Shown here one piece after another: positions 2,991 through 15,102 of a DNA stretch of 20,045 bases (the first letter of the stretch is position 1; each line of letters begins with the position of its first letter). The stretch spans positions 1 through 20,045 of IMG/VR virus record IMGVR_UViG_3300044681_000608; one strand, given 5' to 3'. The notes under the pieces are model-generated. The model was given only the letters and a program-made list of their open reading frames with translations, was not told where the DNA came from and made no database searches. The translations under genes were made by a program, and so were the position numbers. The stretch is from a virus.

Positions 2991-2995
2991 CCCTT
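2991..2995 (-). promoter_or_regulatory. Ribosome binding site AAGGG that sets the gp55 start
   Basis: AAGGG lies 6 nt before the ATG at 2984 and supports this start over the longer open frame. It overlaps the -35 box of the plus-strand promoter by two bases. Confidence 0.75.
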
Positions 2996-3021
2996 GACAT
3001 TTTAAAAAACCGTAGTATAAT
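2994..3021 (+). promoter_or_regulatory. Full-consensus sigma-70 promoter on the plus strand, antisense to all genes
   Basis: TTGACA at 2994-2999, a 16-nt spacer and TATAAT at 3016-3021 match the bacterial housekeeping promoter at all 12 positions. The predicted start is G3028. It points away from gp55 into the 3' end of the Sm-like gene, against all annotated genes. No plus-strand protein gene with a ribosome site follows. Confidence 0.6.
3014..3019 (-). promoter_or_regulatory. Weak candidate promoter -10 (TATACT) for gp55
   Basis: The minus strand reads TATACT at 3019-3014, five of six matches to the sigma-70 -10 box. A hexamer 17 nt upstream (TTCTCT) matches TTGACA at only three positions, so an activator would probably be needed. 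Transcription would start near 3007 and give a leader of about 23 nt including AAGGG. The box shares four bases with the plus-strand TATAAT, so the two promoters could not be occupied together. Confidence 0.3.
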
Positions 3022-3027
3022 TCGAGT

Positions 3028-3116
3028 GTTAACGAGAGAGAAGGGTAATTAGTATTCTCTAGGATCAGAACTCCAATCAGTCCAACGATTACCATAATCT
3101 GGATGATTGGTTTGTT
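3028..3116 (+). ncRNA. Candidate small antisense RNA over the 3' end of the Sm-like gene
   Basis: This is predicted from three signals in a row on the plus strand. A consensus promoter would start an RNA at about 3028. A 6-bp inverted repeat follows (AGAGAA 3037-3042 with TTCTCT 3055-3060). Then comes a longer hairpin, left arm 3073-3090 and right arm 3096-3110, 15 bp with bulges of one and two bases and a 5-nt loop, followed by TTTGTT. The RNA would be about 90 nt, complementary to the last 22 codons of the Sm-like gene and part of the gap before gp55. The stem is not GC-rich and the T run is broken, so termination may be partial. The arms also encode protein on the other strand, so the hairpin could be chance. 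Confidence 0.4.
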
Positions 3117-3639
3117 CCTCCGTAGTTTCATCGCTAATTTCTTCTGGGGGAAATTGAAATTCAAACTCCCATTCAACTTCTTCACCATTCATTCCCATAC
3201 CTAAAATCTCAGCCAAAGATCTACCATCGCCATCTTCATCAGACATTTTCTTTGCCTGATCAATCATAGAATCGAGATATTTCTGAAACTCATTTTCCAT
3301 ATCTTTTTTTACCGAATCCAAATTCTTTATTGATTTTGGTTTGGTATCACTTTGTTTTTTTTCTTTTTCTTTCTCATACAAAGAGATAGCCTCCTTGAGT
3401 GGAGTGCTATAACTAATCACTAAATCTCTTGGTATTTTAATAAATTTATCAGCACTGTAAGATACCCAGTCTCTCAGAATTGTAACTTCCCTCTGAGATC
3501 CTGTGTATGGATCAGTCATGAGCATAGTTCGGAATGCCATTGGAAATTCCATTGACAGTTTACCCTTTTCTGACTCTACTAATTTAGTAATGATTTCCTC
3601 ACCTGACTTTAATTTAAGAATTCTGTATGCTGGATCCAT
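3049..3639 (-). CDS. Sm-like (LSM/Hfq-type fold) conserved phage protein, function unknown
   Basis: The 196-residue protein lies between uvsW and gp55. Residues 5-90 have the strand pattern of an Sm-like domain: YRILKLKSGEEIITKLVE (5-22), then KLSMEFPMAFRT (27-38), then a VTILRDWVSYSADKFIKIPRDLVISYSTP segment (52-80) leading into a helix. I assign the fold from this pattern only; RNA binding has not been shown. Residues 91-150 are Lys/Glu/Asp-rich and include DEDGDGRS (134-141). The C-terminal 45 residues are acidic and aromatic and end in SSDPREY. The ATG at 3639 has GAGGAG upstream, which overlaps the uvsW stop, so the two are coupled. Its 3' end is covered by the candidate antisense RNA. 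T4 has no gene here that I recognise. Confidence 0.65.
   Translation of the reverse strand: MDPAYRILKLKSGEEIITKLVESEKGKLSMEFPMAFRTMLMTDPYTGSQREVTILRDWVSYSADKFIKIPRDLVISYSTPLKEAISLYEKEKEKKQSDTKPKSIKNLDSVKKDMENEFQKYLDSMIDQAKKMSDEDGDGRSLAEILGMGMNGEEVEWEFEFQFPPEEISDETTEEQTNHPDYGNRWTDWSSDPREY
3073..3116 (+). terminator. Bulged 15-bp hairpin with T-rich tail, possible terminator of the antisense RNA
   Basis: CCAATCA (3073-3079) pairs with TGATTGG (3104-3110), TCCA (3081-3084) with TGGA (3100-3103), and GATT (3087-3090) with AATC (3096-3099). The right arm is fully paired without a break. TTTGTT follows at 3111-3116. It is weaker than the terminator at 6094-6120. Confidence 0.35.
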
Positions 3640-3649
3640 GCTGTTCTCC

Positions 3650-5119
3650 TCATAGTTTGATTCTTGTCAGATCATATGGAAACTTCTCATTATTATATAT
3701 CTTTAATCGTTCATCTAGGTGTTTCATGGTATGATTCTTATAGCTCTTGTATGAAAAATCGTCTGATATATCGTAAACAAAGGTTTTATCTTTTCCCTGT
3801 GCCTTTCTCAATCCTCTTCCAATCGACTGGAGAACCCGTACAACAGATTTAGATGGCGAAGCAAATACAACATTGTTTATTCTTGGAATATTAATTCCAG
3901 TTGAACATGTTCCATATGAAGCAATCAGAATGGCATTCTCCTCTTGGTTGAGAATATGTCGTATCTTTTCTCTTTGATCTGCATCAGTACCTCCGTGGAT
4001 AAAGAATATCTTTTTATCCTCTGATTCTTGTTGTATTATATCATATAAAACCTTACCGTGCAACTCAACATAGTTGAACAGTACAAGGCTATTTCCCTTG
4101 AGGTTAAGGGAAAGTTTCTTTATAAACTCATTTCGTTTTGTGTTAGATATTATATAACTGATTTCTTCCTGATAAGTTTTCCGTTTCATTTCTTGGACGG
4201 CTTCATCGTCGTATCCAAGAATCAAACACTTTATTTCTATGTCAGATAATAGGTTCTTGTCAATAAGTTTCTTAGTCGAAGTGACGTTATACAGTTTACC
4301 AAATAATCCCTCAATGACAAGTTTATGTGTTTGTGTTCCATCTAGTGTACCTGTTGTTCCGATTCTGAAGTGAGCATTCGTCATCTTGGTCATAAGACCA
4401 GCAAGAGACTTCGCCTTGAATAAGTGACATTCGTCCCCAAAAACACAATCAAACTCGTCAAAGAACTCCTTTGGCATCTTATAAAGGCTTTGCCAAGTTG
4501 AAATTACAATTGGTTTGTTGCTAGCCTTTTCTTCACCTGAAAAAATACGATGCGTATTTCCCTCTACATTCCAAGTCTTATTTGCATAATCCTTGAAGTC
4601 ATTGTATAATTGATTCACCAAGCCAACTGTAGGAACTACGATAAGTATCTTTTTATTTGTTGGTTGATTCAGACAATACCGAACCAACATGTAAATAATC
4701 AAAGATTTACCACTACCAGTCGGAGATAAAAGTAGTGCTCGTTTTTTTCTGATGGCATGATAAACTGCTTTTAACTGATGTACATGGGGAGTTATTTTTA
4801 ACTTTAAAGACTTAACAAAATCCATGAACTGTTCTTTAGTTTCAGTTCCTGTTTCTAATAACTTTTCACTGTCTATCTCGTATTTGTACTTACGGTCTTC
4901 TGCAAAACGAATGATATAATCCAACAACCCAGCATATATTGTTCTTCCGTATAGATTGAATAGCCTTATCTGACCATCCCATATTTTCTTTTTATATGCT
5001 GGTGTGTATTGATAATTTGGAACGTAGAATGTAAAATAGCCGTTTAATTCTTTTGCTATATCTTTCTCTGATTCTACGATTAAATTAACTGCATCTTTTT
5101 GCCGAATGATTATATCCAT
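3650..5119 (-). CDS. uvsW: UvsW ATP-dependent RNA-DNA and branched-DNA helicase
   Basis: UvsW is a superfamily 2 helicase that removes R-loops at origins and moves branched recombination intermediates, shifting the phage from origin-dependent to recombination-dependent replication. The 489-residue product shows an N-terminal substrate-binding region (1-110), Walker A SPTGSGKS (132-139), the DEAH-type box DECH (229-232), motif III TGT (256-258), a C-terminal RecA domain with SYGTCSTGINIP (401-412), and motif VI QSIGRGLR (431-438). Length matches T4 UvsW at about 500. A TTG one codon upstream would also be in frame, but the ATG at 5119 shares one base with the uvsY stop (TGATG) and has AAGGA upstream, so it is chosen. 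Its place beside uvsY and gp46/47 fits its role. Confidence 0.96.
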   Translation of the reverse strand: MDIIIRQKDAVNLIVESEKDIAKELNGYFTFYVPNYQYTPAYKKKIWDGQIRLFNLYGRTIYAGLLDYIIRFAEDRKYKYEIDSEKLLETGTETKEQFMDFVKSLKLKITPHVHQLKAVYHAIRKKRALLLSPTGSGKSLIIYMLVRYCLNQPTNKKILIVVPTVGLVNQLYNDFKDYANKTWNVEGNTHRIFSGEEKASNKPIVISTWQSLYKMPKEFFDEFDCVFGDECHLFKAKSLAGLMTKMTNAHFRIGTTGTLDGTQTHKLVIEGLFGKLYNVTSTKKLIDKNLLSDIEIKCLILGYDDEAVQEMKRKTYQEEISYIISNTKRNEFIKKLSLNLKGNSLVLFNYVELHGKVLYDIIQQESEDKKIFFIHGGTDADQREKIRHILNQEENAILIASYGTCSTGINIPRINNVVFASPSKSVVRVLQSIGRGLRKAQGKDKTFVYDISDDFSYKSYKNHTMKHLDERLKIYNNEKFPYDLTRIKL

Positions 5120-5553
5120 CAAATTCCTTGTGTAAATTTAATCCACTCAATTGCAGATTTTATATTCCATTGTCTTCCGGTAATAATTTTAATTACCTCT
5201 TCCAGATAAGAACAAGTTGACTTCTGCAGTGATATTTTTGCTCGTATTTTTTGCAAATCACGATCAGAGTCTAAAAACATTGGTATATCTGTTTTTAATA
5301 TGTTGTGCTCAAATGGTTCCCAATCATTTCTCCGTAAATCATCATCACCCATCTTTCCTGTGTAATAAAGCCATTTATCACGTTTCATTGTCTTTTCTTC
5401 AAACTCTAACTTTTCAAGTTGAAGTTTAGCGTTTTCATATAAAACAAGATATTTATTATGTAATTGTGGAGTTCTTAGTGATTCTGAATTTAGATCGGTT
5501 TCATTAATTTTAATATCATCTTCTACCATTCGACGAAGAGATTCAATGTTCAT
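5119..5553 (-). CDS. uvsY: UvsY recombination mediator protein
   Basis: UvsY helps the phage recombinase UvsX replace single-strand binding protein gp32 on single-stranded DNA. The 144-residue, mostly helical and charged protein fits T4 UvsY (137 residues) in length and layout. There is a KRDKWLYYTGKMGDDDLRR segment (58-76), equivalent to the T4 region around LDYYSGRGDGDEF, a Lys/Asp-rich middle, and a C-terminal helix ending KSAIEWIKF. It lies directly upstream of uvsW, as in related phages. The ATG at 5553 has GAGGT 5 nt upstream, and the stop overlaps the uvsW start by one base. No enzyme motif is expected. Confidence 0.88.
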   Translation of the reverse strand: MNIESLRRMVEDDIKINETDLNSESLRTPQLHNKYLVLYENAKLQLEKLEFEEKTMKRDKWLYYTGKMGDDDLRRNDWEPFEHNILKTDIPMFLDSDRDLQKIRAKISLQKSTCSYLEEVIKIITGRQWNIKSAIEWIKFTQGI

Positions 5554-6093: not shown

Positions 6094-6120
6094 AAAAAAA
6101 GAGCACTCCGAAGAGTGCTC
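6094..6120 (-). terminator. Strong intrinsic terminator after gp23 (UUCG loop)
   Basis: An 8-bp perfect stem GAGCACTC/GAGTGCTC (6101-6108 with 6113-6120) closes a TTCG loop on the minus strand, the extra-stable C(UUCG)G form, followed by seven Ts (6100-6094). It lies 25 nt after the gp23 stop. The other strand has CTTTATTTTT after the stem, so it may act in both directions. Confidence 0.93.
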
Positions 6121-6144
6121 CTTTATTTTTCTGATATTTAATTA

Positions 6145-13018: not shown

Positions 13019-15102
<2,084 letters not shown>

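Follow-up and report, generated by a model that had tools for sequence, protein, structure and literature searches.

A backward promoter beside the late sigma gene

This locus raises the question of what a perfect host-type promoter is doing on the plus strand of phage DNA in which, as the original prediction pointed out, every major ORF lies on the minus strand. A motif scan of the window, by which we mean the whole 20,045-nucleotide stretch analysed here, confirmed that promoter at 2994-3021(+), where TTGACA (the -35 box, 2994-2999), a 16-nt spacer (3000-3015) whose sequence is unconserved and TATAAT (the -10 box, 3016-3021; TANAAT in relatives) match the sigma70 consensus at 12 of 12 positions. 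Transcription would be expected to start at G3028, the seventh base past the -10 box. The promoter occupies the 64-bp gap between two minus-strand genes, one for an Sm-like protein (3049-3639; T4-GC 139 family, PHROG 431/471) and gp55, which encodes the late sigma factor (2457-2984; PHROG 234, E 4e-53). ORF annotation places the uvsW helicase gene (3650-5122, minus strand) upstream of the Sm-like gene. No second perfect promoter occurs in the 20 kb, where 0.07 would be expected, and 6 of 100 shuffled windows held one or more, so that, judging by one window alone, a chance match was possible; the original prediction had likewise called chance unlikely but possible, and it was the comparison with relatives that removed the doubt.

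The Sm-like family matches PDB 3by7 and TIP60 chains with E values of about 1e-11 to 1e-12; one structure of the family thus exists. Members of this family (T4-GC 139) are often labelled 'methylamine utilization', a label that is probably wrong. The C-terminal NRWTDW tail of the protein belongs to the non-cyanophage branch. Further along the window, after gp23, a strong bidirectional terminator-like hairpin (GAGCACTCCGAAGAGTGCTC, 6097-6124) has T runs on both sides.

Conservation of the promoter

A search with the Sm-like protein gave 74 IMG/VR loci, to which we added pelagiphage HTVC008M, Methylophilales phage Melnitz-3, eleven annotated cyanophages and a second IMG/VR scan. De-duplication by sequence, with no phylogenetic weighting, left 83 distinct loci with an Sm-like gene. 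Querying annotated phages with the Sm-like gene of the window itself, at the DNA and the protein level, returned no match, and the link to known phages was made through IMG/VR contigs and gp55. At the equivalent position, 80 of the 83 distinct loci have a sigma70-type promoter in antisense orientation, with TTGACA placed 16 or 17 nt from TANAAT, TAGGAT or TACACT; the carriers include IMG/VR marine phages, HTVC008M and many cyanophages. Both promoter boxes, which the original prediction had proposed to look for in related phages, are therefore kept. TTGACA itself is invariant in 81 of the 83, and across this set the boxes hold 1.8-2.0 bits of information apart from a free third base in the -10 box, while the spacer and upstream flank drift (mostly below 0.5 bit). 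The promoter persists where the identity of the neighbouring proteins falls to 27%. Conservation in relatives rules out a chance match as the origin of the promoter, and the plus-strand element beside gp55 is, on this comparative evidence, almost certainly a true conserved promoter.

Two losses are clear (L028 and L031), and these are the two loci without gp55 after the Sm-like gene. Since both clear losses fall where gp55 is absent downstream, the promoter goes with gp55. Melnitz is degenerate by promoter score; by eye, TTGCTT-17-TATATT is a possible promoter there. In two Melnitz-like loci of Methylophilales type (L077 and L202) the -35 box seems weaker, TTGACT or TTGCTT lying 17 nt before TATATT, and an additional TTGACA falls within the promoter spacer.

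When the scan was anchored on gp55 instead, 41 of 80 additional, more diverse loci matched the promoter at 10 or 11 of its 11 scored positions. It is present in Syn9 (record position ∼123,700, minus strand), freshwater DSL-LC02 and Sinorhizobium phage phiM7, but absent from T4, Vibrio phage R10Z and Delftia phage PhiW-14. Its orientation is equally distinctive. In six complete cyanophage genomes (Syn1, S-SM1, Syn33, P-SSM5, S-SCSM1 and P-RSM1) it is the sole TTGACA-N16/17-TANAAT opposite most genes, against 3-19 matches on the coding strand of the same genomes.

In the window the antisense -35 box overlaps the gp55 ribosome-binding site (AAGGG, minus strand, 2991-2995), a feature that the original prediction overlooked, as it did the sense promoter for gp55, the start-site palindrome and the recurring copies described below. 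We rejected this ribosome-binding site as the cause of TTGACA conservation, because in most of the distant clades gp55 starts ∼80-190 nt past the Sm-like stop codon and TTGACA stays. A backward promoter that is near-universal in related marine phages is very likely to be a working control element, and we regard it as probably a working promoter.

Earlier promoter surveys relied on standard predictors, and the sites that they retained were confined to gaps or to the vicinity of ORF ends (PMC3037559, PMC9004378). We found no description of the element in the literature searched, which did not take in the main Syn9 transcriptome paper.

The predicted antisense RNA

A transcript from this promoter would overlap the Sm-like gene from 3049 on, and the placement of the promoter thus supports the proposal that its product would be antisense to the end of that gene. 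The 15-bp bulged hairpin and TTTGTT described originally are present on the plus strand (3073-3116), and the stem at 3073-3110 has 16 pairs, with a bulge and an internal loop. The 93-nt stretch has a folding energy of -25.8 kcal/mol (z -2.3), and the terminator score of the window, -14.2 kcal/mol with the tail at ∼+84, is the strongest among the relatives listed. In the window phage the RNA would thus probably run from 3028 to an end near 3116, an end point that is unconserved.

The notion of a defined RNA of ∼90 nt with a conserved hairpin end did not survive comparison. Among 15 close relatives, 8 of the 16 pairs are broken in some, and the compensatory stem changes that the original prediction had suggested looking for are absent, with zero pairs changed on both sides. 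As had also been noted, the hairpin bases encode protein: one arm carries, on the minus strand, the WTDW codons of the NRWTDW tail. Distant relatives have lost the 3' arm; the 5' arm owes its retention to the WTDW codons that it carries. The Thr codon of WTDW (3073-3084 region of the window) is unusually fixed: it reads ACT at 45 of the 52 distinct loci (z -10 relative to codon usage), next to a free Arg codon, a pattern that points to a nucleotide-level constraint. Terminator-like hairpins of -9 kcal/mol or stronger lie within 200 nt in 22% of loci versus 8% of shuffles, a modest excess at no fixed place. Having found no covarying pair, we rejected a conserved terminator or small RNA fold.

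These results bear on the suggestion that the promoter makes a discrete small RNA acting in trans, perhaps together with the Sm-like protein encoded by the adjoining gene. The good terminator-like hairpin of the window phage would suit such an RNA, but that hairpin is unconserved, and across the 83 distinct loci no sequence is conserved past ∼+30 and none is common across lineages downstream. Action in trans by a conserved seed is therefore unlikely. The Rfam 15 covariance models gave no match up to E = 1, which led us to reject a known RNA family. Overall we consider a trans-acting RNA very improbable. A conserved antisense ORF, found at only 4 of 122 loci, was also rejected as the product of the promoter.

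A possible gate on gp55 and the late genes

The promoter lies at a boundary in gene order. In Syn9 the site separates a late block (gp13 to gp23, gp3, uvsY, uvsW and the Sm-like gene) from a replication block (gp55, gp47, gp46, gp45, gp44 and gp43). Most relatives also have a sense sigma70 promoter for gp55, overlapping or near the antisense one. A sense promoter scoring at least 10 of 12 is found at 72 of 122 loci, as against 5 of 122 shuffles; measured from where the antisense -35 box ends, its own -35 box falls anywhere between 39 nt before and 57 nt after. A good sense promoter for gp55 is missing from the window (8 of 12) and from its nearest relatives, in which the antisense -35 box overlaps the gp55 ribosome-binding site.

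The explanation that we tentatively prefer, at somewhat under an even chance, is that an early sigma70 promoter at the late/early boundary directs antisense transcription into the Sm-like gene, acting against read-through and in competition with the gp55 promoter. It would fire backwards from the junction of a late module (gp23-uvsY-uvsW-Sm-like) and an early/replication module (gp55-gp47-gp46). While host sigma70 polymerase is dominant, antisense transcripts would enter the Sm-like gene at its 3' end, and the polymerases making them would oppose those reading through from upstream, at a promoter that overlaps or competes with gp55's own. Once gp55 takes polymerase, sigma70-dependent antisense traffic would fall, so that read-through and late transcription could rise and the gate would time itself. 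The proposal that the promoter might affect read-through into gp55 fits its placement. Promoter activity, early timing and a lowering of gp55 or of Sm-like/uvsW expression are the parts of this model that we infer.

Conservation in 80 of 83 loci, gp55-linked losses, uniqueness on the non-coding strand, the nearby sense promoter, the copies of the unit and the boundary position all speak for such a gate. Against it stand the unconserved terminator and the score of the window's sense promoter, which is 8 of 12, so that promoter competition may not apply in the window phage. The gate also leaves one feature unexplained, namely the covarying palindrome at the predicted start.

The inverted repeat at the predicted start

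The -10 box of the antisense promoter is directly followed, in many lineages, by an inverted repeat built around a TGT core. The centre of the repeat lies 6-8.5 nt past that box, which is the expected start. The arms covary: the mean stem score is 4.06 versus 3.14 ± 0.10 when 3' halves are swapped, and with one locus per distinct 5' arm it is 2.78 versus 1.67 ± 0.22, a value reached in 0 of 1000 swaps. Such a repeat could belong to a promoter that acts as a polymerase roadblock, where the near-consensus boxes bind sigma70 polymerase tightly and a hairpin formed by the palindrome in the opened non-template strand keeps it paused and slow to escape. The parked polymerase, more than the RNA, would then block read-through and access to the gp55 promoter. 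The fixed position of the palindrome, the covariation of its arms and the fact that it travels with the promoter to the CP12/cpeT and small-gene sites of cyanophages favor this reading. However, perfect stems of at least 4 bp are found in only 35% of distinct arms, the palindrome of the window's clade is a weak remnant of just 3 bp (TCG..CGA, 3022-3035, plus strand), and the non-template strand is only slightly preferred (paired difference -0.29 ± 0.14 kcal/mol). We consider a roadblock of this kind rather unlikely. Slightly less likely still is the wider claim of a new architecture, a sigma70 promoter that starts transcription within the loop of a covarying hairpin, with the hairpin acting as DNA. 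Such a promoter would be universal in marine T4-like phages beside their late-sigma gene, its copies in cyanophages would drive metabolic genes and small early ones, and it would gate the early-to-late switch by means of a paused polymerase.

The unit of promoter and palindrome recurs elsewhere in several cyanophage genomes. Coding-strand copies precede small ORFs in Syn1, S-SM1 and Syn33, and others stand before host-like auxiliary genes, CP12 in S-SM1 (L259, record position 14280, plus strand) and cpeT in Syn33 (L261, 13858, plus strand). Copies ahead of such genes suggest that the unit is probably a working promoter. HTVC008M, P-SSM5 and two large non-cyanophage contigs (142 and 157 kb) yielded the gp55 copy alone, and the gp55 copy is probably the common ancestral one, as far as its distribution allows us to infer.

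The palindrome might instead be an operator, a dimeric site at which a phage regulator would bind and turn the promoter off, with a specificity that drifts between lineages. Arms are indeed common to the copies within one genome (AACC..GGTT occurs three times in Syn33 and likewise in S-SM1) and differ between lineages. The arm sequences nevertheless number at least 20, with some differences between close relatives, which is fast for protein-DNA co-evolution, and the single copy in HTVC008M, P-SSM5 and the large non-cyanophage contigs led us to reject a regulon-wide operator. An operator in general appears improbable.

In phiM7 (L254) the antisense promoter has a perfect palindrome (CAGGAATGTCCTG). 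It precedes a small annotated gene, gp36, on the opposite strand (L254 minus strand, 520-672); Kyanoviridae have no ORF like gp36 at the site.

Relation to known systems

T4 ori(uvsY) is an R-loop origin with a promoter beside uvsY-uvsW. By analogy, the antisense RNA could form an R-loop that primes replication, and a universal promoter without a conserved product, adjoining uvsY-uvsW, would suit that role. The gene order and promoter type differ from those of T4. A single theta origin, of no given location, has been predicted for Syn9 (PMC2984593). GC skew gave no turning point at the site in Syn1, S-SM1, Syn33, P-SSM5 or HTVC008M, and with the extremum elsewhere in all five genomes we rejected an origin on this measure, which is a weak test for T4-like replication. 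We judge an origin primer to be distinctly improbable.

Overlapping opposed promoters are familiar from IS10 RNA-IN/RNA-OUT and similar antisense pairs. The gp55 site resembles these in its predicted overlapping opposed transcription and in a predicted start inside a hairpin-encoding stretch. It differs in that what is observed is a promoter sequence and no RNA pair, and in that its palindrome is also found where an ordinary gene (CP12 or cpeT) is driven.

One antisense RNA is established in a T4-like cyanophage: CfrI of S-PM2 (∼225 nt) is found at psbA and a homing endonuclease gene (Millard et al. 2010; PMC2984593, PMC5931967). Like the RNA predicted here it lies on the 3' side of a phage gene. 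CfrI, however, is defined by its psbA locus, whereas the window element, a computational prediction, lies between the Sm-like gene and gp55, occurs also in phages of heterotrophs and is thus not a member of CfrI.

Cyanophages, which lack MotA/AsiA, are thought to transcribe their early genes with the host's sigma70 polymerase in unmodified form (PMC2984593), and the early promoters of T4-like cyanophages are of host sigma70 type (PMC2984593; predicted in PMC3037559). These share with the gp55-site promoter the consensus -35 and -10 boxes read by host polymerase, but they drive coding-strand genes, whereas the gp55-site promoter is backward, nearly invariant and in many lineages joined to a palindrome. 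Marine T4-like phages lack the MotA/AsiA middle system of T4 (PMC2984593), and for part of the timing of their change from early to late genes the backward host promoter conserved next to gp55 offers a concrete candidate. The phages that carry it infect cyanobacteria, SAR11, Sinorhizobium and, more weakly supported, a methylotroph. Among phages already used for RNA-seq, Syn9 and S-PM2 either carry the promoter or belong to a group that does.
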